DNA from: Haematococcus lacustris
Lineage: Eukaryota; Chlorophyta; Chlorophyceae; Chlamydomonadales; Haematococcaceae
DNA: 64,000 nucleotides
Assembly (NCBI GenBank): GCA_030144725.1
Contig: JASKMD010000024.1
Coordinates: 2,533,076 to 2,597,075, forward strand
Direction of reading: 5' to 3'
The notes beneath the pieces are model-generated. The model searched no databases, was not told the DNA's origin, and worked only from the letters and a program-made list of their open reading frames with translations. Within the stretch, counting starts at the first letter, position 1. The number at the start of each line of letters is the position of its first letter. This document shows, piece after piece, positions 18,737 through 50,052 of the stretch. The position numbers were made by a program, and so were the translations under genes.

Positions 18737-18835
18737 CCCGCTGGCTATACAATTGTAACCCGCTCTGCTCGTGTTCAATGTACGTTGCATACACTGTAAG
18801 CAAGACGGGATTTTGAAGTCTGCCAACCCTCCTAT

Positions 18836-21175: not shown

Positions 21176-21414
21176 CTCGGTTCGTACAAGTGGGAGGCGA
21201 AGGCAGACTTCTGGCAGCGATGAACCGGCAGACTTCTGGGCAGCGATGAATCTGGGCAGTCTGGCCGTCTCAGTCGATAGTTCTCTACTGACCCTATGTC
21301 CGGACCCTGGTTGTGAGTTATATGCCCCATTCACCTCAACTGCATGCCTGCCCCCCATCACCCCCTGCTCTGCCCTTGCACACACACCTCACCTCTGGTC
21401 CAGCTGGGCAGCAG

Positions 21415-22594
21415 TCCGGATGTCCCAACATGGGGTTGGTAATCTTCATGCAAATACTCTTTCAATTCTGCACCGTTTCTGATAGCGTTTGTCACATTGG
21501 AGGCTGCGAATTATTTGGCGTCTACAGGCAAGCAGCGCGTTACCTCTTGCGAGTTAGGCCATGCCGGCACAAGCGATCGCGGACACACCTCAACCGCTCA
21601 CCATCAATTGCATTAGTGGTATGTAGCGGCATCAGTGGTTGAACTGCGCCTGCTATCGACTAGGAAGTACAATCAATGTTTAGCCCGCCAGGCTCGCTCC
21701 GCGAACCTTTCATTGGTGCAGGCGGTGTCGGAGGACCGTCGTTGGGCAAGTTGACACTCGACATTGCTGCGAGGTGCGAATGGAAAGAGGTCTCTCTAGC
21801 CAGCCACACAGGAAAAGGGCCCCCCTTGCACAAACCGGCATGTTGTGAGCTGACCACTGTGCCTTTTTAGACTTTCGAGTGTCAACTTTGTTCCTTACCC
21901 AACGACTCAGCTGTTGGAGAAGAAAGCACGTCATTTCATTGAGTAGGCTTGTGGGAACATAACTTGGCGTGACCTAACTTTGCCTTGCAGTACTGACTAG
22001 CCCAACCGGACCACCCCCTGGCAGCCCCACCCCCTCCCAGCCCCAGCCCCACCCCCTCCCAGCCCCTCCCACCCCCTCCCGGCCCCAGCCCCGCCCTCCC
22101 ACCCCCTCCCACCCCCAGCCCCGCCCTCCCACCCCCTCCCACCCCCTCCCAGCCCCCCTCCCCTCCCACCCCCTCCCAGCCCCTCCCAGCCAAGCGATCA
22201 AGCGATGCAGCAGCCTTGTATACTTCCGAGCATGGGTGGAGGGGCGTCGTTACATCGGTTTGGCGTGCCATGTGAATTGTTTTGACTGCGGCGACTGTCC
22301 CTGACTGTTTGCAGATGCTACTGGGCCACGTCGGTCGCGGCGGTCGGTCGCGGCGAGGCCCGCATGAGCATAACTGGCATGAATTTGAATGTCACGATTT
22401 GAGCCGCCATAGCACTCAGCACAGTGCACAATATTTAATGTTACAAGCTGCACCGCGTAGCTGACAGAGTCCTCTATCCAGGGATGTGCGAAACACAAAT
22501 AGAAACCACCAGGCTGAGACGCGGCGTCGTTTTGATTACCAGGGGTCGGTTTCCTATCATTTCCTGTCATTTTTTGTTGGTTGGGGTCGCCTGA
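21415..22594. mobile_element. 1.18-kb insertion in the left arm only
   Basis: The right arm reads uninterrupted across this site. In the left arm GCAGCAG occurs on both sides (21408-21414 and 22595-22601), consistent with a 7-bp target duplication. The insert carries a CCCCTCCCA-rich block (22010-22195) and ends after a T-run (CATTTTTTGTTGG). No ORF or terminal inverted repeat is evident, so it is a non-autonomous element of unknown class that arrived after the arm duplication. Confidence 0.8.
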
Positions 22595-22601
22595 GCAGCA
22601 G

Positions 22602-22741
22602 AGGTGTAGGCCTGGCCCCCCCCGCTCCCGGCGCTCCTCAGCTCAGCCCCTTGGTTAGGGTTAGGTGAGCATCATGCACATCAACAACAAGGCTGGAGGG
22701 GGTGGCAGAGGCTGGTGCATTTGAAGCAGGCAGTGGAGTTG

Positions 22742-22780
<39 letters not shown>

Positions 22781-23860
22781 GGTGGGATGGTTGATGGGCC
22801 AGCTTGGATGGCCCGGGCTCAGCGGCCGCGGCTGTGAGGCATGATGACGCTCTGCAGGGCTGGTGGTGGCGGTTGGTTTGTGCCATACATGACATTGACA
22901 GGTTAGGGGCCTTGGCCACAACCCCCCTCCTCTGGCTGCTGCATGTACTCACGAGCTTGCTGGAGCTGCAATAGCTGTTGTGCAGGTTCAGGCTGTGTCA
23001 AACATTAATCGTTGTTGGCAAGCTAGTGCCATAAAAGAGTTCAAAAACGTTGCTTACATGTGTGAGGTGTTGCCTATGGGTTGACTGATGCTGCGCACAA
23101 TCCTGCTTGCCTTGACGTGTTGATGTTGACTTGCACCATCCAGTTGCTACCAGGACGCCAGCATGCTGCTGTTGGCTATGATGGCCCCCATGATGGCTGG
23201 TGCCCATGATGGCTGGCCCCCATGATGGCTGGTGCCCCCATCTGGCCCCCATCTGGCCCCCATCTGGCCCCCATCTGGCCCCCATGATGGCTGGTGCCCC
23301 CAAAACGACTTCTGGCGGGCGTCATGGGCTGTCAATAATGCACGCTTGTTATAAGAATCTTCCCTTCAACTACACAGCATGCGCGGCATCTATTTCTCCC
23401 GGTCTCTGCATGGCAACTATGACATGGAGGATTAATCGTCGCCATCATTGACGTCAGATCTCCTATTCTCCCTCGTTCTGACGTCGGACATTTTCCCCCC
23501 CGCCGATCCCGCCTCGAATGCGGACCGATAGGGGGTTCGACGCCGACTGAATTCGGCCCATTGCGTCGATGGGGTAAGCTGTCGATTCAATCAACCCTCC
23601 CGGTTACTCCTTGCCGATTTTCGGCAATATTATTGGTACCAAAAACGGCAAGCCCCCGCAAGCACCCCGTCTGTAGTGTTTGTCCACGCTAGAGGCCTGT
23701 AGGTACGGCATCGCAGGCAAGTGCGGCGTTCAGCTTACAGGTGAGCCAGCACATTTATTGGTACACATTTAGGCTGGCCATATCGATGCTCAGCTCACTA
23801 ATGTAGGCCATCCCAGTGTCCTAGTGTTGCTCGCGGTTATAATATGCACGTTGCAGGCGA
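22602..23860. other. Non-coding part of the left arm
   Basis: It contains a TTAGGGTTAGG patch (22651), a run of 13 CAG units (22746-22784) and a CCCCCATGATGGCTGGTG/CCCCATCTGG minisatellite (23180-23295). A GACGTC-rich segment (23450-23490) comes before the transposase start. All are mirrored in the right arm. No gene is recognised. Confidence 0.6.
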
Positions 23861-24548
23861 ATGTCCTGCATCGCGGCCTCGGTGCTGAGAGGGCGGACAA
23901 AGGGCTCGACAACTCCTCTTAGTCCCGACACCAACACATCAGCACCTAGACACCGTAGGCAGAAGCGCCCAGGTCAACAGCCTCCACCTCGACAACCTCC
24001 TGCACCAGGCACCAGGCACCAGGAGGAGCATGGAGAAGCATTAGAAGACCAGCAGCAAGAAGAGGAGCAGCAGCAGGAAGAGCAGCAGCAATGGAGCAGA
24101 GCTGGAGGAAAGCAAAACAGAGACTGGAGTGAAAGGAAGAGGTTGGAGGATCAGCACTGGACCGCGTTGAACAATTGCATGCGGCGCTCGTACATCAGCA
24201 ATGCACCACAGATGGAGGAGTGCTACTCTCACAAGCGCATGCAGGTGCAAAGCAGCTTCCAGTCTTCACTGGATGTTGCTTGGCCCAGCTGTTGTGGTGT
24301 GGCAGGTTCTTGTCAGCAGGAGAGCCTGCAGCCAAGAGACTCACTGCCCGCCGAGTATGTGAGCATGGACTACCGCGTTCCTGTTTCAATCCCTTGCTGG
24401 TGGTGCACAGACTGTGAGCAACATGTCATGCCTGACTTCACCCTTGCTGGTTGCTTCCCCAGCTCTCCACAGAGGCCAAGTCTCTTGTTTAGCCTCACCC
24501 TGATGAAGGCTCTCACTGTCTTCCAGTCTGGTCGCCTATCCATGACGG
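23861..24548 (+). pseudogene. KDZ transposase exon 1, orphan copy (KDZ-1 left)
   Basis: From ATG 23861 the exon encodes about 229 residues. It has a basic/Pro N-terminus (VLRGRTKG), a Glu/Gln-rich coiled region, and a Cys-containing block with 'VSIPCWWCTDCEQHVMPDF' and 'GCFPSSPQRPSLLFSLTL'. That block matches the CxC-type cysteine cluster that precedes the catalytic core of KDZ transposases. It ends at a donor (ACGG|GTATGT) that matches the right copy. Exon 2 is missing because the arm ends 31 bases into intron 1. The frame is intact here thanks to a third CACCAGG unit that the right copy lacks. Confidence 0.85.
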
Positions 24549-24580
24549 GTATGTGACCTTACTTGTATGATTGATGCTAT

Positions 24581-24625
24581 ATGCACGTTGCAGGCGAATG
24601 TCCTGCATCGCGGCCTCGGTGCTGG
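24581..24625 (+). repeat. Copy of the transposase leader preceding the partner gene
   Basis: Bases 24581-24625 repeat 23842-23886 almost exactly (TGCACGTTGCAGGCGAATG... CTCGGTGCTG). The start of the partner gene region is therefore homologous to the transposase start region. The short frame MSCIAASVL then stops. Confidence 0.85.
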
Positions 24626-24725
24626 GACGCACGAAAACTTTGGTGCCCTCGTGGTAGGCGAGGCTTGCGCGTAGCATATTGCCTTCCGGCCTCCATCGGT
24701 CTTGGGGCATTCCTGCAGGTGACGG

Positions 24726-26116
24726 ATGGCAAAGAAGGCTGGAGTGTCTAAGCTGGTTGGTTTCCTGACACAAGCTCAGCAGTTGGCCATAGCAGATGCA
24801 GAAGCTTGCAGCAAGAAGCGAAAGCGCTTCCACAACCTTGGGAAGCGATACCAAGATTGTCATGGCACAGCCTCTTTCGTGTCATACAGTGCCAGTGGCA
24901 AGCAGCCTGCAGCCAACAGACTGACGTGGAACAGCTTAGCTATTGAATCCCTCAAAGACAATGAAGATGTCATGACTTCCCTTCATGTCCTTATGAACGG
25001 GACTGTGAGCACTAACCAATCATTTCAACACGCAGCCACAGTTTGCATACAGGAAGGAGCTCTTTATCTCCTAAAGCTGTCCAATAGTAGTCTTAGGCCC
25101 CGCCGGCGCCAGCGCCAGTGTGGCAGCAGTTCCTGTGATAATGACAGTGACGCCGCAGCCCTAGATACACACGCAGGACTGTCTCAAGGTATGTTATACT
25201 TTGCTGGACTATTTGCCACTGCTCACCATTGCTGGTAGACTCTACATATGCACGTATGGTGATGGTGCTTGTTTGCAGATGGCGCTTGCAAGAAACTGTC
25301 CGATGCAAGGAACTTGAGCATGCACAAGCGTGCAAAGGGAAGCCTGACAGGTAGGCTATCACATTTGTGTCGAATACAATGGCATTGGCTTGCTTGCCCA
25401 ACACACCACAGACCCAAACATGGAATTCTTGGTTCAAATACTCGTCATGGTCCTCGTTACTCATTTTTACATGTTGTGCAGCCCAAGGCTATGCAATTGG
25501 TGGCAGTCTTGCAGACAGCATCAGTGCTCGCTTAGCGCTAGCCTCCAGGCACTCCCCGCTTGGCAGTGCCCTGACAGAAGCTGGCCGCGAAGCCGGTCTT
25601 AGCGGAGCAGGGGCAGGCAACCCTGGAAGCTCTCCACTCACTGACCTAGCAGCTGGTCGCACTCCATACCTCACGGCCCTAACAGCAGACTCCCCACTCC
25701 CCACTGCCCTTGCAGTTGGCCGCGCACCACCTAATGGGGCAGGGGCAGCCTCCCCACTCCTCACAGCCCTAGCAGCTGGCCGCACAGCCCCTGGTAGGGT
25801 AGGTGTAGACTCCCCTTTCCTCACTGCCATGACAGCTGGCCGCACAGCCCTAGCAGCTGGCCGTGCAGCCCCTGGTGGGGCAGGGGCAGACTCCCCACTC
25901 CTCACTGTCGCAGCTGGCTGGTGTGCAGTGGGGAACCAACCATACACTGACATGACCTTGGACACCTTGGGACGACATGCTAAGCTCGCCTTGGACAGAG
26001 GAAATCTTGCAGCAATGCGGGCAGTCTACGCTTCCATGTACTCCCGGCCCAATGCAACGACAAACAAGATGTTCAAGGCGTTGCATGAGGCCATCTCAAA
26101 AGCTCGGATCGGATGA
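24726..26116 (+). CDS. KDZ-associated partner protein (unknown function), intact
   Basis: I read three exons (24726-25188, 25279-25350, 25482-26116), all with GT-AG ends and phase 1, giving 389 residues from ATG 24726. The start follows a CAG acceptor-like site, and an in-frame TGA lies just upstream. The N-terminal 150 residues ('KRYQDCHGTASF', 'NRLTWNSLA', 'LHVLMNG') are homologous to the protein encoded at 31213-32304 inside the second KDZ transposon (RYQERHRGATF, NRLTCHTPR, FHILLNG). The middle is a Pro/Ala repeat region (LLTALAAGRTAPG) and the C-terminus is helical. I recognise no known domain. Its linkage to two different KDZ transposases suggests a transposition accessory or regulatory role, which is an inference. 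Confidence 0.75.
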
Positions 26117-27615
26117 TGCTGTCTGCCGTGAGTCGTGTATGTAGCTGTATGCTGCCGTGTAGTTGTCGTTTTAGTACTCTTGCTCCTCCAAGTCATTCAT
26201 TGTTACCACTCCGCCATGTCTGCGTCTGCCATTTGCAGGGTGCTGCCAGCTACCGCCCAAACCCAGACCATGTGGGGCCACACGCAATGGCAAGCATGAG
26301 TTGAGGTGCCTTATTGCATAGAACAGGCTTCAAGCAGAGCTTGCTGCTAGTGGTGCTCACCATCAGGGGCAAGGCTACCAGTCAGGTCCCACAAGGTCTC
26401 TTTGGCAAAATGTACCGTGAGCCATTTGATGCCGCGCTTACACAGCCTTGATCGGCGAGCCTTCCCGATATGCCTACTGCATCAAAGGGCCTGCACGGCC
26501 TGGACGCCCACCAACCCTTGCCAAGTGTCTAGCTGGCAAGGTTACTGTAAATGGATGCGGCGCTCTTTTTTAAGCGGGTGCTGGTAGGTACGGTACACAA
26601 CAGCGCTAGCGCGAGGGCCGGCGGTTATGTCGGGTAACTGGGTGGCTCGCATCTCGCATCGGGCTGCCGCAGCTCGCTCGCAACATGCCTAAGCTTTGCA
26701 ATGGCCCTACTCCTCCACCACATCAAAGCATATACTACGAGCTGCAGGCAGCATGTCCGAAGGAATTGTTTTTTTCTGGTCTCTCCTTCGACGACATTAT
26801 TGAGAGGGCTGATGAACGACGAGAGCTTCCTATGCTTTCTTATGCTTCCCTATGCTTCCCTTTGCTGTCCTATGCTTTCCGATCCTTCCTATTCTTACTA
26901 CGCTTAGTGCGTCGGCCCATCGCTAATTATGGCCGCCAGTCTGCATCATTTGCGCCGCTGATGGTAGCTTGGAGGAACCAAAACGACCTCTAGTACTTTC
27001 GCAGCCTGGTGAGCGCGAGATGATGGGGTAATTTAGACACGAGCATGGTAGGTATGTCTGGGTGTATCTATGGGTGCTAACCTAAAGGATACGCTACCAA
27101 AAGTTGCAGAAGTTCTCGGGGCACACCGCTTGCATCTCTACTGGAAATCAGCACGGCGTTTGATGCAATTCCTGCCTAGAAATTAGGTTTCAGCTCACTG
27201 GAACACAAAGCCTCCCAACCTGCGCAGGGCAGATGAATTACACTACAATAGCTTCCCGTGGGAGCTATGAGTATACGTCAAAGCTAGGGCGCAAAAACTG
27301 GACGGATGCGCAGCAGCAACAAGCAGCAAATCGATCTCAAAAACAGCACTGCAGATTTGCATGTCGGCACCCCATCACGGCACGCCGACCGACCGACTAG
27401 TGACCGCTCTACCTCGCTCGTCGTTGCGGCGTTGTTGTATGCACGTGCACTACCGTCAGGGTGCAAGGAGTCACTGGTGCAAGGTTTGGACTTTAGCCCG
27501 TCCCTCGCAGGCCAAGCTGCGGAGCACCACGCCGCAGCGGGGCGTCGCGGTTTGACCTCTTGGAGTTCAGTATACGCGACAAAAAGTGACGGTACATTTT
27601 TTTCAGCCATTTTAT
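26117..27615. other. No gene recognised
   Basis: This 1.5 kb lies between the partner gene and the inserted KDZ-2 transposon. It has pyrimidine-rich CTTCCCTATGC repeats (26830-26890) and only short frames. It may be interior sequence of the larger KDZ-1 element. Confidence 0.4.
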
Positions 27616-27622
27616 CAGACCT
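27616..27622. repeat. Target-site duplication CAGACCT, left
   Basis: CAGACCT directly precedes the left terminal repeat and recurs at 32887-32893 directly after the right one. Confidence 0.85.
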
Positions 27623-27922
27623 CAGTTAAGTCTCCCGGTCACACACATCCCTCCCAGGGAGGTCTGAGCAGCACCTGAGAGGGATGCCACCTCTAAACGG
27701 CTTCCCTTGCGCCGTATAGCCTAGCCAACTATCGCGCAAGCCATCAGCGTCGAAGGCGTCGCTGTAGGTGCCAAAAAGGCTGGTCAGCCTGCTTCGCGGC
27801 ACGCAACCTGTACCCACATCAGCCACAGGTGTGGTTAGCACTGTGGTGCAAGCTTAACAACATCAGTCGATGGCATCGCAGCCTAGCAGCGGTTACAGCA
27901 GGCGGTTACGGATGGCTTGCAC
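27623..27922 (+). repeat. KDZ-2 left terminal inverted repeat
   Basis: This 300-bp repeat is the reverse complement of 32587-32886. It ends at GGATGGCTTGCAC, 12 bases before the transposase ATG. Confidence 0.95.
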
Positions 27923-27934
27923 ATTGCAGGTACA

Positions 27935-30362
27935 ATGTCCGGGCTGGTTAGCTCTGTGTTGAGAGGCAGGACCGTTGTTGGCGGTGCCCCAGTACGCCCC
28001 GGATTAGATACTCCAGCTCCCAGTACAGGCCGAAGACGTCGCGACCAGTCTCCACCACGCGCGAACACCGCAACGCAGCGTGCCACAAAGCAGAAATCAG
28101 ACGAGCATCAGCCAGAGCAGGAGCATGAGGAGCAACAGGAGGAGCTGCATGAGGAGCAGCAACAAACACAACAGCATGAGCGCCAGCAGAGGCAAGAGAG
28201 TAGTGTTTGGGGAGAGAGGAAAGCACGTTTGAATGAGGAGTGGCGAAAGCTCATTCCCATCATGCGCCACTCCTACATTGATGCTTCTCCAGCATTGCAG
28301 CAGTGTCATCTAGACGAGGGCAAGCTCGTCCAAAACCATGTGCAAATGAAGCTGGACTGTGCGTGGGAGGGGCATGCCTGCTGTTGCTTAGGACCGGTAC
28401 CAAGCAGCGCCATGCTGGAGCCTTATGCCAAGGGCCCACTGCCAGCTGAGTATGTGAGTTGTGACCATCGTGTACCAGTCTCCATTCCTCGTTGGTGGTG
28501 TACAACCTGCAACCAGAAGGTCATGCCTGACTTCATTCGCGTTGGTTGTTTTCCCAGCACCCCGCAAAGGCCTGGCTTGCTTTTCAGCCACACCCTTCTT
28601 GAACTTCTCTCTGTCTTGCAGAGCCAGGATGGTGTCTCCATGTCAGGTGAGATTCCATGCTGTAACTTGAGCAGCCTTTGCAAGCACATCAAACTACGTC
28701 CTAAAGCTCGTGCCCACAATGCCCTTTGCAGTGTTTGCTAATGCATTGGATGCCTCACACCGGCCATACAGCCTGTACCCTGTTGACAGCTGCCAGATCG
28801 TTGAACAGCCGGAGCAGCCAGAGCGGCAACAACGCGTGGAGCTGCCATTGAAGCCGATGCGCATCACAGCCGAGGTTTTGATGGAGGCGCACTGCAACTG
28901 GCTGCGCACCACAGACCGTGTCGCCCTCCTGGCAAACTTGTTGCCTGACTTCCAGCCCACTGGTGGCCCCTTTGCAGATTGCCCATGTTGTGCAGGTACG
29001 TGATAGTGTTCTCTTAGTACTGCCATGCAAGTACATGCATTTCCAATCATGCATCTCAAAGCTTCTTTCCATGCATGTGTAGGATCAAGCGAGACACAGA
29101 GCGATGGCTACAACTACTGCTTGTGTGGTGATGCAGTCTCCAAGCTCAGCAGCTACTCCGGTGTCGGCCAGGCCACCACCGCCATACAGCCGCACCTAAG
29201 CAGCCATCTGGACTGCAATGGGTTTAAGGGTGATGTCCAGAGGCGCTTCAAAAGTGGAGAGCTGTCCCTGAACCATCTGCTTGGCACTACCGCTGGTGGA
29301 CCACATGACGATGATTGCGCAACCAACTTGTCTTGCTCAAGACCAGAAGTCAGCAGTAGGAGTGGGCCTGTCAGCGTGCATGGTCTGGTCGGCTTCTGTT
29401 GCTGCCATGGTGTACCTGCGCTTGGCTTGTTCTGCAACATGCCCACACCGGAGCAGTTCGCGTTCTATTTGCTGGCCCTTACCTGCTTGGCGCGCAATGG
29501 ATGGCCAAGCCATACCTCCCCCGATGCCCCTCACCCCAACCATCATTCAGCTGCTGTGGGCTACCTGCAAAGGCTGGCAGCTTAAGACCATCCAGAGGAA
29601 ACAACTCAGCTTGGAGGTGGCGCACCGTGTGGATGCGGAGGCGGGATTAAGCAAGGCAGATATGCAGCGAGGACTGGTGTTGTTGAAGGCAGAGAAGATT
29701 GCTGCGTGAGTCAATGACAGCTTCACCACAACCAGCCAGCCAGTTTGTTGTTTGTGTGTATGTCATGCTATCATCATGACAGCCCACATCATCTACCCAT
29801 ACTGCTAACAATAAGCTAACATCATGCCGCCTTGCATGCATATAGGTGCCACTTTAAAATTGAGAGCCTTGTGGCAGATGTCATGCAGCTTCAGGCAGCC
29901 AAGGCCCGTGAGGGCCCCAGTTGCAAGGAGACGAAGAGATTGGCCAAGGCGCAGGCACGCAAGAGAGCACAGGCCAAGGAGGAGTTGTTGTGCATGGCTG
30001 AGTGGCAGGCGCTTGGCACCTCCCAGCAGCCTGCAGCCTTGCGGCTCCCGGAGGCTGTCATCGGCTGCATGGTGGCGGGTACAGCCCCACCATGGGTACA
30101 AGACTCGTCGACATCAGGGGCTGTCACCCTGCACCATGGCAAGCGCTTCTTTCAGCTGTACAGCGATCAGGACCGCATACGTGAACAGCAAGGCATCCTG
30201 AAGCTGGAGTTGAACCGGCTCAAGGCGTGGCTGCGTCACAATCATGAAAAATGCACAGCCTCCCTGCCCTTGTTGAGTGAGGGTCAGCAATTCTATGTGG
30301 CGCAGCATATGGCATGGTTTGCCAAGGAATTGAAGCGAGCAGCTCGCTTGCAGTGGGAGTAG
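27935..30362 (+). pseudogene. KDZ transposase with internal deletion (KDZ-2)
   Basis: Exons 27935-28646, 28732-28995, 29083-29705 and 29846-30362 have GT-AG junctions and agree with the KDZ-1 copy. Features include the CxC-like block (PRWWCTTCNQKVMPDF, GCFPSTPQRPG), then 'GPFADCPCCAG', then the first catalytic Asp region 'SDGYNYCL', then 'SVHGLVGFCCCHGVPALG' and 'PEQFAFYLLAL'. After FYLLALT, the segment that in KDZ-1 holds the second Asp (YIDFGC) and the Glu (GEQCEQLWS) is missing, and the frame shifts before 'LTPTIIQLL'. The C-terminus (CHFKIESLV... LQWE) is complete. This is a KDZ-family DDE-type enzyme disabled by an internal deletion. Confidence 0.85.
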
Positions 30363-30438
30363 TGTTTTTGTGTGCTTGTCTGTCCCTAACCCAAACGTGT
30401 CTAGCAAGGCGCTGTTAGCTGTCGTTGTAAAGAGCCGG

Positions 30439-30740
30439 ACAGCCCCCAAGTAACTCCCACCCATACATCCCGGCTGCAGCCCCCAAGTAACTCCCACCCA
30501 TACATCCCGGCTGCAGCCCCCAAGTAACTCCCACCCATACATCCCGGCTGCAGCCCCCAAGTAACTCCCACCCATACATCCCGGCTGCAGCCCCCAAGTA
30601 ACTCCCACCCATACATCCCGGCTGCAGCCCCCAAGTAACTCCCACCCATACATCCCGGCTGCAGCCCCCAAGTAACTCCCACCCATACATCCCGGCTGCA
30701 GCCCCCAAGTAACTCCCACCCATACATCCCGGCTGCAGCC
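30439..30740. repeat. 37-bp minisatellite, about eight units
   Basis: The unit CCCCCAAGTAACTCCCACCC plus 17 more bases repeats with hardly any variation between the two KDZ-2 genes. As 37 is not a multiple of three, each unit shifts the frame. All three minus-strand frames stay open across the array, producing artefactual ORFs. Confidence 0.95.
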
Positions 30741-31212
30741 CCCATACAGCCATACACACCCATACACCCCAAGTACACCACACACCATTACCCCCATACT
30801 CCATAACCCCCAAAATCCCAAGTACATGCTCCCAAGCCGCCATACGCACGTGACTGCTCCCACTGTCCTCTATATTAGGCGACGCGCCTCATTTTACGGG
30901 TTTACATTTATTACATGTTCTTCGAGCACCCGGCCCTAAAGTGGGTTACAGGAAGTACCAAGACCCAGGAGGGGGGGCGTTTGAACCTTTGTTATTGCAC
31001 TTACAGGGGGACACAACGCCTAACGGCTTAAGCGGTGTGAGCCATCAATCATCAAGAGGGGGAGCAACCTCATGGCATCTTCTCTACAAGTCACATCTTG
31101 TCCCATCTCAATCCTTGACCTTGTCACATTGTCACCTCCGTCACAGTCAGGTCAGGGCTAAGGTCAGGCTAGGGTCAGGCAAGGGTCAGGCTGAGTTCAA
31201 GCTGGGTTATGC

Positions 31213-32304
31213 TTATGGGTTATGACCCAGCAGCTGCGTGCCGGTGGCTGCCCCTACAGCTGCTGCCCATGGTCCCAGGCGTTGCGTGCCAGTGGGTGCA
31301 GCAGCACCTGCTGCTTGCTGACCCAGAGGCTGCGTGCCGGTGGCTGCCCCTACAGCTGCTGCCCATGGTCCCAGGCGTTGCGTGCCAGTGGGTGCAGCAG
31401 CACCTGCTGCTTGCTGACCCAGTGGCTGCGTGCCTGTAGGTGCAGCAGCACCTGCTGCTTGCTGACCCAGAGGCTGCGTGCCAGTGGGTGCAGCAGCACC
31501 TGCTGCTTGCTGACCCAGCAGCTGCGTGCCGGTGGCTGCCCCTACAGCTGCTGCCCATGGTCCCAGGCGTTGCGTGCTAGTGGGTGCAGCAGCACCTGCT
31601 GCTTGCTGACCCAGTGGCTGCGTGCCTGTAGGTGCAGCAGCACCTGCTGCTTGCTGACCCAGAGGCTGCGTAGCGGTGGGTGCAGCAGCACCTGCTGCTT
31701 TCTGACCCAGAGGCTGCATGCCGGTGGCTGCAGCACCACCTGGTGCTTGCTGACCCAGAGGCTGCGTGCCGGTGGCTGCATCAGCAGCTGCATCAGCACC
31801 ACCTGTGGTTTCCTCATCCTCATCCTCATCACTGCTGTCATCACCGGCAGCAAGAAGCTCCTGCATTGTGAGCTTGTTCACGTCTTTGGGTGTGAGCTTG
31901 AGATGAGACTGGCGCATGAGGCTCAAAGCTGCCTTGTGCACAATCTTCGCTGAGGGCTCATGTAGGGCTGAGTCAACGCTGAACACACCATTGAGCAAGA
32001 TGTGGAAGGCTATCATGATGGCCGAGTCAGTGGACAACTCTGCCCTGGGAGTGTGGCAAGTCAGTCTGTTGGCCTTGTCGCATTTACCCGTTGAGCTAAA
32101 CTCCAGAAAGGTGGCTCCACGGTGCCGCTCTTGGTACCTTTGCCCAATACAGTGGTACCTCAACCTCATCCTGTAAAGAGCATTCGTCATTGCTTTGCCC
32201 CTTCTGGCTGAAGCTATGCATTCTTTATGTAACTCCTCCAGACGCTTCTCGCCAATGTTGCTCTTGCCAGCCATCGCCACCTGCACATTCACCAGCAAGC
32301 TCAT
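31213..32304 (-). CDS. KDZ-associated partner protein (KDZ-2 copy) with repeat tail
   Basis: ATG 32304 opens 363 codons. A probable internal exon start (GTGCAG|GTGGCGATGGC) corresponds to the start used by the homologue at 24726. Residues about 15-150 match that homologue (RYQERHRGATF, FHILLNGVFSVD, KAALSLMRQSHL). After an acidic stretch (DDSSDEDEDEE) the C-terminal half is repeats of TGTQPLGQQAAGAAAP. The upstream leader (about 32325-32545) is homologous to transposase exon 1. It is convergent with the transposase, the same arrangement as in KDZ-1. The function is unknown. Confidence 0.65.
   Translation of the reverse strand: MSLLVNVQVAMAGKSNIGEKRLEELHKECIASARRGKAMTNALYRMRLRYHCIGQRYQERHRGATFLEFSSTGKCDKANRLTCHTPRAELSTDSAIMIAFHILLNGVFSVDSALHEPSAKIVHKAALSLMRQSHLKLTPKDVNKLTMQELLAAGDDSSDEDEDEETTGGADAAADAATGTQPLGQQAPGGAAATGMQPLGQKAAGAAAPTATQPLGQQAAGAAAPTGTQPLGQQAAGAAAPTSTQRLGPWAAAVGAATGTQLLGQQAAGAAAPTGTQPLGQQAAGAAAPTGTQPLGQQAAGAAAPTGTQRLGPWAAAVGAATGTQPLGQQAAGAAAPTGTQRLGPWAAAVGAATGTQLLGHNP
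31220..31790 (-). repeat. 48-bp coding minisatellite in the partner gene
   Basis: Roughly a dozen 48-bp units encode TGTQPLGQQAAGAAAP. Some units are exchanged for LGPWAAAVGAATG, forming a higher-order pattern. The frame is maintained to the stop. Confidence 0.9.
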
Positions 32305-32586
32305 GAAGTTGCTTTAGCCTCCCCAAACACTACTCCCTTGCCTCTACTGGCGCTCATGCTGTCGCGTTTGTTGCTGCTCCTCCTGCTGTTCCCGTAGCTA
32401 AACCTGTTCCTGCTCTGGCTGGTGCTCGTTTGATTTCTGCTTTGTGGCACGCTGCGTTGTGGTGTTCGCGCGTGGTGGAGACCAGTCACGACATTATCGA
32501 CCTGTCCTGAGAGCTGGAGTATCAAATCCGGGGCGCACTGGTCTAACGCCGAAAACGGGCCTACACTGAACACGGCCCCAGACAGC

Positions 32587-32886
32587 GTGCAAGCCATCCG
32601 TAACCGCCTGCTGTAACCGCTGCTAGGCTGCGATGCCATCGACTGATGTTGTTAAGCTTGCACCACAGTGCTAACCACACCTGTGGCTGATGTGGGTACA
32701 GGTTGCGTGCCGCGAAGCAGGCTGACCAGCCTTTTTGGCACCTACAGCGACGCCTTCGACGCTGATGGCTTGCGCGATAGTTGGCTAGGCTATACGGCGC
32801 AAGGGAAGCCGTTTAGAGGTGGCATCCCTCTCAGGTGCTGCTCAGACCTCCCTGGGAGGGATGTGTGTGACCGGGAGACTTAACTG
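32587..32886 (-). repeat. KDZ-2 right terminal inverted repeat
   Basis: This is the reverse complement of 27623-27922, ending CTTAACTG immediately before the CAGACCT duplication. Confidence 0.95.
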
Positions 32887-32893
32887 CAGACCT
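32887..32893. repeat. Target-site duplication CAGACCT, right
   Basis: Matches 27616-27622. Confidence 0.85.
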
Positions 32894-33147
32894 TGTGGGA
32901 CCTGACTACCAGCATGATGGCTTTGGAGCAAACTAAAGGAACATGCATGGTGTAGTCGGAGATGTAATGTGTGAGAGTGCAATAAGTCTGCTTCCTTATG
33001 TAAAGGTGGTGGTGGGCCCCGCTGCATCCGGCTGTTTGCAAGGACAAGGTAGCAGCACGCTTACTTACAAACTCATGAGAATTTGTAGCATTTGTAGCAT
33101 TACTTACAAACTCATGAGAATTTGTAGCAGCAGCGCACTTGAGCACC

Positions 33148-33152
33148 CCATG
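33148..33152. repeat. Target-site duplication CCATG, left
   Basis: CCATG flanks the LTR element here and at 36298-36302. Confidence 0.9.
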
Positions 33153-33580
33153 TGTAACAGTCCAGACACTCAGCTAGGATGAATGGTAGATTCGTGTTTC
33201 TTTTCTCCATGCAAGATTCTGTGAGATTTGATTTGCATCTTACTTATGACGAGATCTTGCGATGCTTAGGGACTTTTCAGGGGACTTCTTGAGTGCTAGA
33301 TGCTGGAGGGGCTTGCTTCAGACTTCTTGCAGCCTTCTGATGGACTTGCTTTGCTTCTGCTTGCAATGACTACTCTTCTCTGGATGGATTAGTTCTTTAC
33401 GACGTCTTTACGATGTAAGTACACTGCACTACCCACTGCGCGACTCGGAGGCTGTCGATAAGTATGTAGACAGCCGCAGCGGCAGCAATAGCCGCACAAG
33501 TCAGCATGCTCGACGGTTGCAAGCCGGCACTTATGCCTCAGCCGACCATGCATCCTGATCGCACAAACACTACTGTTACG
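33153..33580 (+). repeat. 5' LTR of the non-autonomous element
   Basis: 428 bp. The final base is G here and A in the right copy, and there are few other differences (for example ACACTAC versus CTCTAC near the end). Confidence 0.9.
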
Positions 33581-34913
33581 TCTGGTTTCCGCAATTGTTC
33601 GTTCATCGCGACCTTTGCGCAGTGACACCGGACCCAACTCAGTCGGAGGTGCCATTGGAGCCGGAACTGATGGCATCAGCTCCAGCGCTTGTCACTGTGC
33701 CTGTTGCTGCAGAGACTCCTGCTTCTAGAAGTCGCTGTACAGCCTGTACCTGCTGTGCTTGCACTGCCGTTTCGCAGACTTGCTTTTCCCGTTCACACGG
33801 AGATCCCGCTTATGCGGAGCCTGCGTTTGCAGAGGCTTGTCTTGCTGACTTGCTTTGCCCGTTCACACGGAGAATCCCGCTGGCGCGGAGCCTGCTGTTG
33901 CAGAGGCTTCCTGATTGCTAACTTGCTTTGTCCCGCTCACGCGGAGAAATGCTTAGCTTGCCTTGCACAATGTCATGTGCGCTGCTTGCCACCTTCATCC
34001 CCGCCACCACCCCAGCCAATGAGAGCCTTGCACCAAACCTGGCCAAAGAAGCAGCCAACCGTCCATAGCCTGCCCTTAGCAGAATTACTTCATAGTGAAA
34101 CTGCAGCCAACACACATCCAGCGCCGTGCTGAGACCCTGCAGCACACTAGGCTGCACAACCCTACAACCTCATCCTTGCAGATCCCTACACACCATACCC
34201 TATGCAGAGCCTCATATCCATCAACACAATTAGCCTGCTCAAACAGAGAACACATAGCTGCACTCCTGCCTTATGCAGAGACGCCTAACACCAGCAACAA
34301 CACATACCTGGCCACCTCTAGGCACAGAGCACACCCAACATGTGACCACCAACAACATCACCCTGCCCAAGCAGAGAACAATACCCTGCAGTGTACCAGC
34401 CTGCAGAGAGCCACACGATGCAGCTGGCAGCCTGAAATCAACCTACCAGGCATCGTCTCAAGCTGACAGAAATGACAAGCAGGGCAAAGTGGCATGGGGG
34501 CCAGCCCAGTAGTCATATCTCGACGTCTAAGGCATGCACTCTCATCTGACCCAGCGATCAGTGCGCCATTCGCCACCCTTCGCCGCATCTCCAGCCCACA
34601 GTCCTACTGTCGACATCGCTATCTGACGACTTTTCGACCAGTTGCAGCCCAGCACAAGCGGAGCCTCACAGCGGACAGCTCGGATGCTTTCTATACTTCT
34701 ACGAGGAGAACACCTTGCACAGGTACAGTCGTAGGGACGCCGCATCCCGCATTGAGCGAGACCTCACAGAGCCGCAGTCCCATTGCACCCTGTTGGCATC
34801 AGCCACAGAGACGCACACAACACATCTCTAGCTTCATGCATCCTGCTGGCTTCCGCCACAGAGACATCAGCTACAGCCTACACTCCTGCATTCCTTGCAG
34901 AGACTAGGGCAAT

Positions 34914-35139
34914 CATACATCATGGCAGCAGAGCTACACAGCCCAGCAGCCTGCCAGAACAATCAAGACGCATAGCGCACGGCATGCGCACATCATGGCA
35001 GCCCAGGTAGCACCTGAGGTAGCACACATACATCATGGCAGCAGCGCTACCCAGCCCAGCAGCCTGCCAGAACACTCAAGTCGCATAGCGCACGGCATGC
35101 GCACATCATGGCAGCCCAGGTAGCACCTGAGGTAGCACA
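34914..35139. repeat. 113-bp tandem duplication inside the LTR element
   Basis: Two adjacent copies, 34914-35026 and 35027-35139, begin CATACATCATGG and differ at a handful of sites. Confidence 0.9.
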
Positions 35140-35869
35140 CAACAACGGCACGGGGCAAAGCGATCATGCATTTGCCTAGGGTTGCAGCCTCTTTGCTGCT
35201 TCTCTCATGTTCACTCATGCATGGGCCACACACTATGCAGTCAGGCACACACACCTCTGCATCCAATCGATCGGGCACATACGCCTAGGCTCTTGAGCTT
35301 CGCACCTCAGTTGACCTCAAAGTGCACAGTACCAGCGTCTCACACGGCTGCATTGGCTGGCAAAGCATGCCAGTTCACAATCGCGGGCAATCTGTTGTTC
35401 CACACTGGCTGAGGGCTCCGCAGGCTTTGTATCCCTGTTGGCACAATAGCTCCAACCTGACATGTGAGGCACATGATACACCCATCGTCTTGGTTAGGGA
35501 CAAGGCATATGTCTGCGTATGTCCCACCACTCTGTTCAAGCACTATGCAGCCGGCATGGACTGATCACCCATTGCAACCTGCGCTGAACACAACTACCAC
35601 ATCTTCTGTTTCTCAGTTTGTGCCACAATGGTTTCTTCAGTCAGCTTTGGATGGAGGAGGGGAACGAGACGACGGTCAGCTCAAGACTCTGATTTCATAG
35701 TTGCAGCATGGTTTGCATGGAGCACGTTACATTTGCTTGTCTGTTGCATGTAGCCTATTCCTGCCTGCCTGTCATTGCCTGCCTGTCTGTGCTTGCTGTT
35801 GCATGATTTTAACACAACTCATCTCAAAACTGCAAGCTCCGGGACGTAGCTTTTCGGAGTGGGGGAGAG

Positions 35870-36297
35870 TGTAACAGTCCAGACACTCAGCTAGGATGAA
35901 TGGTAGATTCGTGTTTCTTTTCTCCATGCAAGATTCTGTGAGATTTGATTTGCATCTTACTTATGACGAGATCTTGCGATGCTTAGGGACTTTTCGGGGG
36001 ACTTCTTGAGTGCTAGATGCTGGAGGGGCTTGCTTCAGACTTCTTGCAGCCTTCTGATGGACTTGCTTTGCTTCTGCTTGCAATGACTACTCTTCTCTGG
36101 ATGGATTAGTTCTTTACGACGTCTTTACGATGTAAGTACACTGCACTACCCACTGCGCGACTCGGAGGCTGTCGATAAGTATGTAGACAGCCGCAGCGGC
36201 AGCAATAGCCGCACAAGTCAGCATGCTCGACGGTTGCAAGCCGGCACTTATGCCTCAGCCGACCATGCATCCTGATCGCACAAACTCTACTGTTACA
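35870..36297 (+). repeat. 3' LTR of the non-autonomous element
   Basis: 428 bp, preceded by the polypurine tract and followed by the CCATG duplication (36298-36302). Confidence 0.9.
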
Positions 36298-36391
36298 CCA
36301 TGATTGTTAGGAGAAGAAGATGGATTGGTAGGAGAAGAAGATGGAATACAACGCTTAGGCCGCTGAGCTAGCAACAAGCACTATCAGGGCA

Positions 36392-39300
36392 CTATGACAC
36401 TACAAAGGCACCATAACAGCGAAAGAAGCGCTTGCCATACAAGAGGGTGGCTCCTCCAGGAGAGGACGGGTCAAGGGCCCACGGCGCAACTGCACCCGCC
36501 ACCATCGAGTTGATGACTGCCTCATCCACGAGTTGATGACTGCCTCATCCACGGTGACGATGCAGTGTTGAAGGCCTGCCACTCCGACATATCCACCAGC
36601 TCTTTCTTGGCCATAGCCAGCTTGCGTCCCCGCGCTATGGCCATGCGCTTTGTGGCTTTGCAAGTGCAGCCTTCTCTGTCCATATCAAGTTGTAGTTGCG
36701 CAGCTTCAGCCACAAGGCATTCGACCTTGAACTGACACCTGAGCATGCACATCGCAGTTGTGATGACTAGCCATTCAACCCTTCCTATATGCAACACTTG
36801 CATAGGCGCACATGCACATGCATATGCATATGCGCATGCATAGTCCTAATCGCCCCCACGCATACCCTACCCATTAGTAGTAGTCACACACCCGGCAATT
36901 CTGCGAGCCTTCAGCAACTCCAGCCCATGGTGTGTGTCCTCCATGCCCAGCCCTTCCTCGGCACTGATGTGGCGCCTGAGCTCCAAGGTTGTCAGCCTCG
37001 CGTGAAACGTCTTCTGTTGCCACCCCTTGTTATGAAGGAGTCCCATCATGGTGGGGGTCAGCTGCAAGGACGTTGCATCGGCCTCCTGGCCCGTCATGAC
37101 AAGCCATACACGCCGCTGCAGCTCCAGCTCCACATAATCTGCCTGCAACCGCCAGCAAATGCAATGCATCTTCTGTGCTTGACATGTTGAATGCGTACAA
37201 TGATAGCTAACTATGCTGGCAGCAATGGTAAAACACCTTCCAAGCATCAATTGCTCGTGGCTGGCTTGCAGGAAGACAGGACGCTTGCCGCTTGCCTCCC
37301 ATTGAACACACCGGACAGGACGCTTGCCTCCCATTGAACACACCGGCTTGTGAGGCCACCATCTATAGCTGTCAGCTCCTCCTCCACCTTTACTGCGAGC
37401 ATACAGTGGCAGCAGAGGGCAGTAAGCATTGTAGGTGTCATATGTGTTTTGCTTGTCAAGTGTGATAGTGGCCGCTTACATTTCTTCTTCTCCATGTCCT
37501 TCCATGTCTTATGTAACAACTCGAGCATGCCGGTAGCCTTTGACAGAGCAATCTGTGATAGTCTGCTCTGCAACACATCTGCACGATGCGCGAGTGTCAT
37601 GTAGCGCGTCACACCAGCCAGATCCTGTACATCATCAGGTACATCACCATGGGTACATCACCAAGGGAGGGGTATGAGCGTGACGGTATCAGATGCTAAA
37701 CGGTGCACGCACGAACCTTCATCATACTCCAAAGCTGTTCACATTGCTCGCCATACCGCCAACCTGCGCGTGGCTGGAACCGGCCGTTGTTAATGATTTG
37801 ACAGCGTTGGTCGTGGGAGGCTCCATGCATCCAGTTGACCAAGATGCGTGCGTCCTTCCATTCACTCGGATATCCCATGGCATCAACGTACCGTTGGTGA
37901 TCTGCAAAACGATGCAGTACATGAGGGCAGGGAGAGGCTTTACTGGTTGCGATGCAACACACCAACAACACACCTTTAGACGACAACCAAAGTCAATGTA
38001 GAACTCTGTACAGAAGTTCATCAGGATGGCGAGGGCAAGCAGGTAGTACGCAAACTGCTCAGGCGTCCTCATGTTGCAAAACATGCCAAGCAGTGGCACT
38101 CCATGGCTGCAGCAGAAGCCGATGAGACCGTGGATGCTCACGGGTGGGCCAACGGACTTGTTGAGTTCTGGGCGACAACAAGTTAGGCTCGCTGAGCAGC
38201 CAGGCTGCTCTGTATCGAATGATGGCCCCCCTGCATCTGCCATGAGGTTGGGAAGTGACAGAGCGTTTGTAAGGAAGCGATGTTGCACATCACCCTCAAG
38301 CCCTTCGCTGGAATGATCAAGGTGGCTGGTTAGATGTGTGCAGTTGCTCGGCCCACTCCAGCATAGCTGCTCAGCTTGGTGACTCCATCAGCACATGCAC
38401 ACCGATGATATCCATCCTCAGCTGTTTGCTCTGTGCCTAAAAGCATATGCATCAACCAAACACACAGACACACACACACCATCCAGCAAAACAATAGTAG
38501 ACAATGAGATGAAGGACCATACCTGCACAGCATGGGCAATCAGCAAACGGGCCGCCACTAAGCTCTACGCCAGGCAGCAAGTTGTCCAGGTGTGTGACGC
38601 GGGTTGTGGCGCGGAGCCAGTTGCAGTGCGCTTCTGTCAGTAGCTCTGCCTTGATGGGCTGGTCTGTTGGGTCGAGAAAGAGCTCATAAGGTCGGTGTGC
38701 GGCATGGATGCCGCTTGCAAAGACTGCATAGGCACGACACGCATCATGACTAGCAAGACCATGACTAGCATCAATCATACAAGTAAGGTCACATACCCGT
38801 CATGGATAGGCGACCAGACTGGAAGACAGTGAGAGCCTTCATCAGGGTGAGGCTAAACAAGAGACTTGGCCTCTGTGGGGAGCTGGGGAAGCAACCAGCA
38901 AGGGTGAAGTCAGGCATGACATGTTGCTCACAGTCTGTGCACCACCAGCAAGGGATTGAAACAGGAACGCGGTAGTCCATGCTCACATACTCGGCGGGCA
39001 GTGAGTCTCTTGGCTGCAGGCTCTCCTGCTGACAAGAACCTGCCACACCACAACAGCTGGGCCAAGCAACATCCAGTGAAGACTGGAAGTTGCTTTGCAC
39101 CTGCATGCGCTTGTGAGAGTAGCACTCCTCCATCTGTGGTGCATTGCTGATGTACGAGCGCCGCATGCACTTGTTCAACGCGGTCCAGTGCTGATCCTCC
39201 ACCCTCTTCCTTTCACTCCAGTCTCTGTTTTGCTTTCCTCCAGCTCTGCTCCATTGCTGCTGCTCTTCCTGCTGCTGCTCCTCTTCTTGCTGCTGGTCTT

Positions 39301-39477
39301 CTAATGCTTCTCCATGCTCCTCCTGGTGCCTGGTGCAGGAGGTTGTCGAGGTGGAGGCTGTTGACCTGGGCGCTTCTGCCTACGGTGTCTAGGTGCTGAT
39401 GTGTTGGTGTCGGGACTAAGAGGAGTTGTCGAGCCCTTTGTCCGCCCTCTCAGCACCGAGGCCGCGATGCAGGACAT
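36392..39477 (-). pseudogene. KDZ transposase, full architecture but mutated (KDZ-1 right)
   Basis: From ATG 39477 the exons align with KDZ-2: exon 1 to 38797, exon 2 38723-38523, exon 3 from 38436, and several more. It has the CxC-like block (WWCTDCEQHVMPDF), 'GGPFADCPCCAG', and the first Asp (EDGYHRC). It also has 'SIHGLIGFCCSHGVP', 'YIDFGC' (second Asp) and an H..C...'GEQCEQLWS' block (Glu), so all three catalytic positions are represented. Three lesions break it: a missing CACCAGG unit in exon 1 (stop soon after), a frameshift with stop at about 38341, and a 23-bp tandem duplication near 36510-36555. The last 60 or so codons are replaced after KRFF. It is therefore a recent pseudogene, or its sequence contains assembly errors at short repeats. 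Confidence 0.85.
36511..36556. repeat. 23-bp tandem duplication in KDZ-1 last exon
   Basis: GAGTTGATGACTGCCTCATC plus three bases is present twice in tandem. One copy restores the alignment to KDZ-2 (EAVI..MVAG), so the duplication causes a frameshift. Confidence 0.85.
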
Positions 39478-40568
39478 TCGCCTGCAACGTGCATATTGTA
39501 ACCGCGAGCAACACTAGGACACTGGGATGGCCTACATTAGTGAGCTGAGCATCGATATGGCCAGCCTAAATGTGTACCAATAAATGTGCTGGCTCACCTG
39601 TAAGCTGAACGCCGCACTTGCCTGAGATGCCGTACCTACAGGCCTCTAGCGTGGACAAACACTACAGACGGGGTGCTTGCGGGGGCTTGCCGTTTTTGGT
39701 ACCAATAATATTGCCGAAAATCGGCAAGGAGTAACCGGGAGGGTTGATCGAATCGACAGCTTACCCCATCGACGCAATGGGCCGAATTCAGTCGGCGTCG
39801 AACCCCCTATCGGTCCGCATTCGAGGCGGGATCGGCGGGGGGGAAAATGTCCGACGTCAGAACGAGGGAGAATGGGAGATCTGACGTCAATGATGGCGAC
39901 GATTAATCCTCCATGTCATAGTTGCCATGCAGAGACCGGGAGAAATAGATGCCGCGCATGCTGTGTAGTTGAAGGGAAGATTCTTATAACAAGCGTGCAT
40001 TATTGACAGCCCATGACGCCCGCCAGAAGTCGTTTTGGGGGCACCAGCCATCATGGGGGCCAGATGGGGGCCAGATGGGGGCCAGATGGGGGCCAGATGG
40101 GGGCCAGATGGGGGCACCAGCCATCATGGGGGCCAGCCATCATGGGCACCAGCCATCATGGGGGCCATCATAGCCAACAGCAGCATGCTGGCGTCCTGGT
40201 AGCAACTGGATGGTGCAAGTCAACATCAACACGTCAAGGCAAGCAGGATTGTGCGCAGCATCAGTCAACCCATAGGCAACACCTCACACATGTAAGCAAC
40301 GTTTTTGAACTCTTTTATGGCACTAGCTTGCCAACAACGATTAATGTTTGACACAGCCTGAACCTGCACAACAGCTATTGCAGCTCCAGCAAGCTCGTGA
40401 GTACATGCAGCAGCCAGAGGAGGGGGGTTGTGGCCAAGGCCCCTAACCTGTCAATGTCATGTATGGCACAAACCAACCGCCACCACCAGCCCTGCAGAGC
40501 GTCATCATGCCTCACAGCCGCGGCCGCTGAGCCCGGGCCATCCAAGCTGGCCCATCAACCATCCCACC

Positions 40569-40610
<42 letters not shown>

Positions 40611-40989
40611 CAACTCCACTGCCTGCTTCAAATGCACCAGCCTCTGCCACCCCCTCCAGCCTTGTTGTTGATGTGCATGATGCTCACCTAACCCTAACCA
40701 AGGGGCTGAGCTGAGGAGCGCCGGGAGCGGGGGGGGCCAGGCCTGCACCTCTGCTGCCCAGCTGGACCAGAGGTGAGGTGTGTGTGCAAGGGCAGAGCAG
40801 GGGGTGATGGGGGGCAGGCATGCAGTTGAGGTGAATGGGGCATATAACTCACAACCAGGGTCCGGACATAGGGTCAGTAGAGAACTATCGACTGAGACGG
40901 CTAGGCTGCCCAGATTCATCGCTGCCCAGAAGTCTGCCGGTTCATCGCTGCCAGAAGTCTGCCTTCGCCTCCCACTTGTACGAACCGAG
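38766..40989. repeat. Right arm of the large inverted repeat
   Basis: The 2,224-bp reverse complement of 21176-24579, minus the insertion. The outer end lies inside the last codons of the F-box/R3H-like gene and the inner end in intron 1 of the transposase. It includes a run of 14 CTG units (40570-40611). The uninterrupted host gene on this side marks the right arm as the source and the left as the copy. Confidence 0.95.
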
Positions 40990-42505: not shown

Positions 42506-49505
<7,000 letters not shown>

Positions 49506-49552
49506 TTGCATGGCCGATGCGCCGGACGACATGGGGTCTGTGTAGGGAAGCT

Positions 49553-50052
49553 NNNNNNNNNNNNNNNNNNNNNNNNNNNNNNNNNNNNNNNNNNNNNNNN
49601 NNNNNNNNNNNNNNNNNNNNNNNNNNNNNNNNNNNNNNNNNNNNNNNNNNNNNNNNNNNNNNNNNNNNNNNNNNNNNNNNNNNNNNNNNNNNNNNNNNNN
49701 NNNNNNNNNNNNNNNNNNNNNNNNNNNNNNNNNNNNNNNNNNNNNNNNNNNNNNNNNNNNNNNNNNNNNNNNNNNNNNNNNNNNNNNNNNNNNNNNNNNN
49801 NNNNNNNNNNNNNNNNNNNNNNNNNNNNNNNNNNNNNNNNNNNNNNNNNNNNNNNNNNNNNNNNNNNNNNNNNNNNNNNNNNNNNNNNNNNNNNNNNNNN
49901 NNNNNNNNNNNNNNNNNNNNNNNNNNNNNNNNNNNNNNNNNNNNNNNNNNNNNNNNNNNNNNNNNNNNNNNNNNNNNNNNNNNNNNNNNNNNNNNNNNNN
50001 NNNNNNNNNNNNNNNNNNNNNNNNNNNNNNNNNNNNNNNNNNNNNNNNNNNN
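49553..50052. other. Assembly gap (500 N)
   Basis: Exactly 500 undetermined bases, a conventional placeholder, so the true size is unknown. ORFs drawn through it are meaningless. Confidence 1.

Follow-up and report, generated by a model that had tools for sequence, protein, structure and literature searches.

Two nested KDZ elements in the window

We analysed a 64,000-nucleotide stretch of the genome of the green alga Haematococcus lacustris (contig JASKMD010000024.1, positions 2,533,076 to 2,597,075, forward strand), referred to as the window, whose own numbering is used for coordinates below. It contains two transposons of the KDZ superfamily, one lying inside the other: the inner element KDZ-2 and an outer element within a complex at 21-41 kb. 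In each, a KDZ transposase gene faces a second gene, here called the partner, that reads inward from the opposite end. The layout of two facing genes is confirmed, and within this genome it is both recurrent and deep. The features of the two elements are as follows.

27623 to 32886, no strand: KDZ-2, a two-gene KDZ element, internally deleted, with terminal inverted repeats (TIRs) CAGTTAAGTCTCCCGG... and the 7-bp duplication CAGACCT
27917 to 30362, plus: transposase exons of KDZ-2, with the CxC3 cluster (PF18804); KDZ core exon missing
31213 to 32304, minus: partner gene of KDZ-2, with the N-domain at about 31900-32280 and 48-bp in-frame repeats; C-domain missing
32295 to 32586, minus: decayed copy of the start of transposase exon 1, in the partner-side arm of KDZ-2
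24726 to 26116, plus: partner gene of the outer element, with an N-domain exon at 24726-25238, 60-bp repeats and the C-domain at 25934-26113; annotated relative P0002
36421 to 39202, minus: transposase exons of the outer element, with CxC3 and KDZ; one TAG in the KDZ match
39448 to 39750, minus: right-hand TIR belonging to the outer element; in the inward direction it has CAATCAACCCTCCCGG at 39750
24579 to 24627, plus: 49-bp remnant of the original left TIR and exon-1 start, adjoining the partner
21176 to 24579, no strand: left arm, which repeats 38766-40989 (the element's right end and about 1.24 kb of flanking DNA) in inverted orientation and is no TIR
38766 to 40989, no strand: right arm, either where the inverted duplication came from or its counterpart

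The arms of KDZ-2 are 100% identical over 300 nucleotides (27623-27922 and 32587-32886), and their similarity extends to 592 bp at 89.7% (27623-28214 and 32295-32886). The inner part of the arms holds the start of transposase exon 1, of which the partner-side counterpart is a decayed copy. Because the terminal 300 bp are identical but the inner arms only about 82% alike, gene conversion confined to the terminal 300 bp is suggested. The exact target duplication flanks the element on both sides, and transposase (plus) and partner (minus) are convergent, which confirms an earlier note's description of KDZ-2 as inverted ends with two inward-reading genes. In a Pfam scan, PF18804 was found in the KDZ-2 exon at 27917-28741 (E = 1.6e-6) and at 39202-38789 of the outer transposase (minus strand, E = 3.5e-8); it is above cut-off in three exons of the window. 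A profile search of the genome gave no match to PF18758, the transposase core, in KDZ-2, whose core exon is deleted, and its partner lacks the C-domain. Both are kept in the KDZ-2 relatives L023, L027 and L028 (individual loci are denoted by L and a number), and KDZ-2 is therefore probably non-autonomous.

The outer element contains PF18758 at C127:2570768-2570938 (E = 4.9e-7, one TAG inside the match), with a sub-threshold PF18758 match at 38288-37722 of its transposase. Its inverted arms are 98–99% alike, the left one bearing a 1.18-kb insert. They are not TIRs, because L021 and L029 show the real TIR to lie inside them. L021, another copy of the outer family (length 4570), has TIRs CAATCAACCCTCCCGG at 2153 and 6722 and the 7-bp duplication CCGGCGT; in the window the same family TIR starts at 23588 and 39750, inside the arms. 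The arms extend about 1.24 kb beyond this true TIR into an open reading frame whose F-box-like match stays below threshold (E = 0.0063, 16.7 bits; cut-off 24.3), and the original left TIR is cut at 24579, at the junction with the inverted copy of the right end. Such an arrangement would fit an inverted end duplication generated by repair or template switching. The earlier note had proposed that the outer complex repeats the KDZ-2 layout, and this part stands: the transposase (minus) reads from the right and a homologous partner (plus) from the left. Its equation of the arms with the element's ends does not. The homology of the two partners, likewise claimed, is borne out by an alignment beyond chance of 24726-25238 with 31213-32304 (31% over 120 amino acids, E = 5e-18).

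Inverted duplications of KDZ ends much like that of the outer complex are also seen at L024 4500-10000, L018 6992-10000 and L025 6627-7576, and may be made by assembly. A KDZ-like TIR glimpsed by eye near 21,097 was not recovered by a pattern scan (three mismatches) and is not claimed.

Three insertions interrupt the outer element, the first of them containing KDZ-2.

26382 to 32905, no strand: element X, with TIR TCAGGTCCCACAAGGTCT and the 7-bp duplication CTACCAG; its right TIR is split by the contained KDZ-2; empty site in L029
33153 to 36297, no strand: long terminal repeat (LTR)-type insertion, TGTAACAG...CTGTTACA, with the 5-bp duplication CCATG; empty site in L029
21415 to 22594, no strand: insertion of 1.18 kb within the left arm, with GCAGCAG on its flanks

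The empty sites come from L029, a copy of the outer family on another contig that is free of these insertions. Without KDZ-2, element X measures about 1.26 kb and has 18-bp TIRs; KDZ-2 jumped later into the right one, and this order replaces a direct insertion of KDZ-2 into the outer element, which we dropped. KDZ-2, the LTR element and the 1.18-kb insert thus do all break the outer copy, as had been noted, KDZ-2 by way of X and not directly. Element X might itself have been mobilised by a KDZ transposase. Both window elements are relics or non-autonomous copies, because KDZ-2 is deleted and the outer element carries three insertions and an inverted end duplication.

The partner protein and its linkage to KDZ transposases

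As read from its sequence, the partner consists of a basic N-domain of about 130 amino acids, a variable linker of in-frame tandem repeats and a predicted three-helix C-domain of about 60 amino acids. In 15 of the 18 genes, representing 8 of the 9 lineages, the unit of the best linker array has a length that is a multiple of three. The same is true of 62 of the 148 arrays in other parts of the loci; this control set is not entirely free of partner arrays. All eight aligned N-domains share an invariant arginine, with a basic patch nearby. Pfam returned no family for either window partner or for the other N-domains scanned, only sub-threshold short matches (two C-domains). It revealed no Myb/SANT or other known DNA-binding domain in the partner, and no TET/JBP or other enzyme domain, so that the earlier exclusion of a TET/JBP protein holds as far as Pfam shows. 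The three helices of the C-domain were predicted from a single sequence (predicted local distance difference test score, pLDDT, 82); Foldseek listed 79 matches to it at E ≤ 10, the best at E = 2.1 and none at E ≤ 0.001, the picture of a generic helix bundle. A profile search of PDB sequences gave two matches at E ≤ 1, to the designed protein OR329 (E = 0.0048, 26 positions) and to TomBN91 (E = 0.23), neither taken as meaningful.

Over the region queried, the KDZ-2 partner shares 98% identity with an annotated Haematococcus lacustris protein, and the outer partner is 98% identical to a different one. Three such annotated relatives were found in the protein database (one and two for the two window partners), all from Haematococcus lacustris, hypothetical and partial. 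No relative appeared in the viral_contigs scan. The literature searched contains no description of the partner; the founding 2014 KDZ and 2012 Zisupton papers and the Repbase entries lay outside it, and a description may exist there.

Linkage was assessed across the window's own genome (307.9 Mb), the sole algal genome tested. PF18758 gave 76 matches from 80 candidates, which merged into 63 KDZ loci. The 118 matches to the KDZ-2 partner comprise 25 core N-domains, 92 N-terminal parts only and 1 second piece of a locus already counted. The outer partner recovered those 25 core loci, one being hit twice, together with C159 and C175:17470194, 28 matches in all. N-domain queries from two further lineages, O2 and O5, gave 75 matches (53 core, 22 covering only residues 1-32) and 21 matches, respectively, so that three queries supply 25 + 53 + 21 = 99 core partner matches. 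The O2 N-domain had no match at E ≤ 1 in the protein database, where search length limits could hide long partner proteins.

With a limit of 14 kb, set after the distances had been inspected, 51 of the 99 core matches lie near a KDZ locus (20/25, 22/53 and 9/21 by query). The nearest KDZ is convergent for 47 of these 51 (18/20, 20/22 and 9/9) and in tandem for the others (2, 2 and 0). KDZ-2 accounts for one of the tandem cases: it has lost its own KDZ core, and its own transposase exons are convergent. The share of the genome within 14 kb of a KDZ locus is 0.55%; for the first query the probability of at least 20 of 25 is 3e-41 assuming independent copies, which near-identical copies are not. 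Viewed from the transposase, a partner lies within 14 kb at 50 of the 63 KDZ loci and is convergent at 49, in agreement with the conserved transposase-plus-partner system that the earlier note envisaged. Not every partner match lies near a convergent KDZ transposase, the point that the note had asked to check, but the matches are not mostly away from KDZ either, narrowly so by raw count.

No KDZ match occurs within 15 kb of any of the 92 matches confined to the N-terminal part, and neighbouring pairs of these within 10 kb are inverted in 33 of 41 cases. These inverted pairs look like fold-back non-autonomous elements. In L030, L031 and the 33 inverted pairs the partner-side end, with the partner N-terminus, stands at both ends, and L030 also has a stretch like transposase exon 1.

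Lineages, selection and co-divergence

The two-domain partner architecture recurs in nine transposase lineages, which form a group H (families A–D) and a group O (O1–O5; the O5 C-domain was assigned by eye). Among 21 loci chosen by KDZ match alone (L009-L028 and L042), the N- or C-domain of a convergent partner was present in the stretch read at 18; for a nineteenth, L022, the partner was found in the neighbouring stretch L038. The O partners of L011 and L020 were initially spotted by eye, at the place where the architecture led us to expect them, and then tied to each other and to further loci by similarity (L011N versus L020N, E = 2e-10; L018, 4.5e-19; L033, 2.8e-11). L042 links the two groups, its N-domain matching both family B (E = 2.8e-5) and O1 (6.8e-5). 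An hhalign comparison of H and O N-domains gave E = 0.0064, equalled by 1 of 200 column shuffles. When a profile built from O alone was searched against six-frame open reading frames of L001-L039 and the window, all ten non-training matches at E < 0.05 were H partners (1.6e-4 to 0.025). Homology of the N-domains between H and O is, by these sequence comparisons, well supported.

The ratio of nonsynonymous to synonymous substitution rates (dN/dS) of the N-domain is 0.22–0.46 between families (among the pairs listed with unsaturated dS), 0.24–0.38 among family C and 0.26–0.43 within B and D; for the C-domain it is 0.17–0.35 between families. The partner is thus under purifying selection between families. 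Mantel tests over the nine lineages correlated transposase exon B with the N-domain (r = 0.88, p = 5e-5) and with the C-domain (r = 0.85, p = 1.5e-4), a correlation that mainly reflects group structure because between-group partner distances are near saturation. The trees of exon B, N-domain and C-domain all split A–D from O1–O4, with O5 between; their finer branching differs in places, mostly with modest support. This parallel divergence suggests that the partner co-evolved with the transposase as a dedicated partner and not as a random passenger.

The role of the partner and comparison with known transposons

Computation has established recurrent convergent linkage, the presence of the partner in nine lineages, purifying selection between families and parallel divergence. 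On balance we lean, by a little, towards the reading that the KDZ elements of this alga are two-gene transposons and that the partner serves the element as its own accessory protein, a role that we infer. The partner would then probably act on the element's own DNA: its N-domain would contact the element ends or subterminal DNA, its C-domain would mediate protein contacts across the flexible linker, and the protein would aid transposase assembly or nuclear entry, like accessory proteins of other two-gene transposons. This mechanism is drawn only from the basic patch near the invariant arginine, the modular layout and analogy. A broader claim is offered tentatively, as possible but somewhat doubtful: that green-algal KDZ elements are a two-component transposition system with a fast-evolving accessory protein family not described before, required by the transposase since before the lineages studied here split, and that the partner's end of the element has been re-used for fold-back non-autonomous elements.

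Several results weigh against the accessory reading. Thirteen of the 63 KDZ loci have no partner within 14 kb, and reading of the 21 loci chosen by KDZ match revealed none in L016 and L019. Conversely, for 48 of the 99 core partner matches no KDZ on the list lies within 14 kb; three of the 48 were read over several kb. In L044, a transposase exon that PF18758 had missed is convergent and 98% identical to lineage O4. L043 has 220-bp inverted ends at 99.5% and an intact-frame partner N-domain with repeats, and no transposase by the queries used; in L032 the partner is decayed, and nothing beyond a weak tpA-like match (E = 0.002) was found. Like L043, the O2-query matches that lack a KDZ look like elements with intact N-domain frames and no recognisable transposase. 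The N-domain therefore also spreads in transposase-less elements: derivatives with the partner end exist and may be numerous. In family A, dN/dS of the N-domain exceeds 1, on at most five differences. A profile built from H alone missed the O partners, and one from H and O5 caught only L040 (E = 0.0078), with an O1 match at 0.3 beside a spurious match at 0.29. Profiles of the C-domain failed to cross between H and O, so that C-domain homology depends on an hhalign match of E = 0.0035 (0 of 200 shuffles as good), for which the reversed control reached E = 0.023; we regard this homology as likely, though weak. Finally, no DNA-binding fold was recognised, and the AlphaFold2 model of the N-domain (four sequences) is unusable at pLDDT 42.

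The partner could instead be an anti-silencing factor that binds element copies and removes or blocks repression without being needed for the chemistry of transposition. VANC of the plant VANDAL elements, an anti-silencing factor, is an analogue for such a role. In all lineage pairs of the distance matrices the divergence of the N-domain outpaces that of the transposase, as expected of a protein that tracks changing non-coding DNA or host defence, and the TET/JBP genes of fungal KDZ transposons are thought to counter methylation, according to the available text of PMC12730594. Those genes, however, were acquired several times independently by KDZ lineages (PMC12730594, same text), whereas the partner co-diverges with its transposase and shows no enzyme domain in Pfam; we consider this role unlikely. 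A passenger, captured once and hitch-hiking, or a host gene captured repeatedly, would agree with the many partner matches that lack a nearby KDZ and with a protein of no known function. It would leave the nine lineages, the fixed convergent position beside the TIR, the purifying selection between families and the parallel divergence unaccounted for, and Pfam and three protein searches gave no host homologue, which makes it very improbable. Equally little credence goes to a selfish partner end, by which efficient non-autonomous ends, through their sequence and not through protein function, place the partner beside TIRs. The predominance of N-terminal parts among the KDZ-2 partner matches (92 of 118), their inverted pairing and L030, with the KDZ-2 partner end at 90% on both sides, all suit it, but the C-domain, kilobases from the TIR, is also conserved as protein between families.

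We compared the elements with systems already described. En/Spm and MuDR are two-gene transposons that pair a transposase with an accessory protein. Harbinger, with its Myb/SANT second protein, follows the same model (PMC12730594 names Nuwa/Harbinger). These three differ from the present elements in belonging to other transposase superfamilies, and Pfam showed no Myb/SANT or other known DNA-binding domain in the partner. Membership of the KDZ superfamily is indicated by PF18758 in the outer element and the KDZ-2 relatives and by the CxC3 cysteine cluster. Exact 7-bp target duplications were found in four of six elements tested (KDZ-2, L028, L021 and L020; not L023 or L024), and the termini are CA..TG. 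Fungal Kyakuja elements, in the part of PMC12730594 seen, likewise combine a KDZ transposase and cysteine cluster with CA..TG ends and 7-bp duplications; the Kyakuja described there have no TIRs, in contrast to TIRs of about 300 bp here, and differ from the present elements, which add a convergent second gene with two domains that Pfam does not recognise. The Haematococcus elements are Kyakuja-like KDZ elements, assigned by termini and duplications, and are not Kyakuja proper because of the identical 300-bp TIRs of KDZ-2. TIRs of 139–241 bp occur in active KDZ elements of Cryptococcus (PMC12810828, in part), and Kyakuja and Zisupton are reported in Chlamydomonas and relatives (PMC8226300, in part).

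In the passages of the literature available to us, a KDZ element is described as a large transposase to which accessory or TET/JBP genes may be added. The fungal elements that carry TET/JBP genes (PMC12730594, in part) resemble ours in joining a KDZ transposase and a second gene, and differ in that the partner here has no dioxygenase domain by Pfam and co-diverges with the transposase across the lineages examined. Giant DNA transposons of the brown alga Ectocarpus, KDZ included, carry accessory genes mostly of unknown function, by the description in the available part of PMC12477816; compared with that description, the likeness lies in the extra genes and the difference in one homologous partner that recurs across lineages at a fixed position. 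If correct, a partner co-diverging across deep lineages would make KDZ a two-component system, would account for some of the unannotated repeat genes in Haematococcus and would give a testable handle on the movement of these mostly unstudied transposons. Assays are feasible in Chlamydomonas reinhardtii, since the KDZ element Kyakuja-3_cRei is known to have moved there (PMC10828217, in part).

Elsewhere in the window, long in-frame minisatellites with 72-bp and 60-bp units lie in large open frames at 17665-18360 and 18771-20447, and the segment at 49001-50000 has 35% G+C against 60–70% around it.

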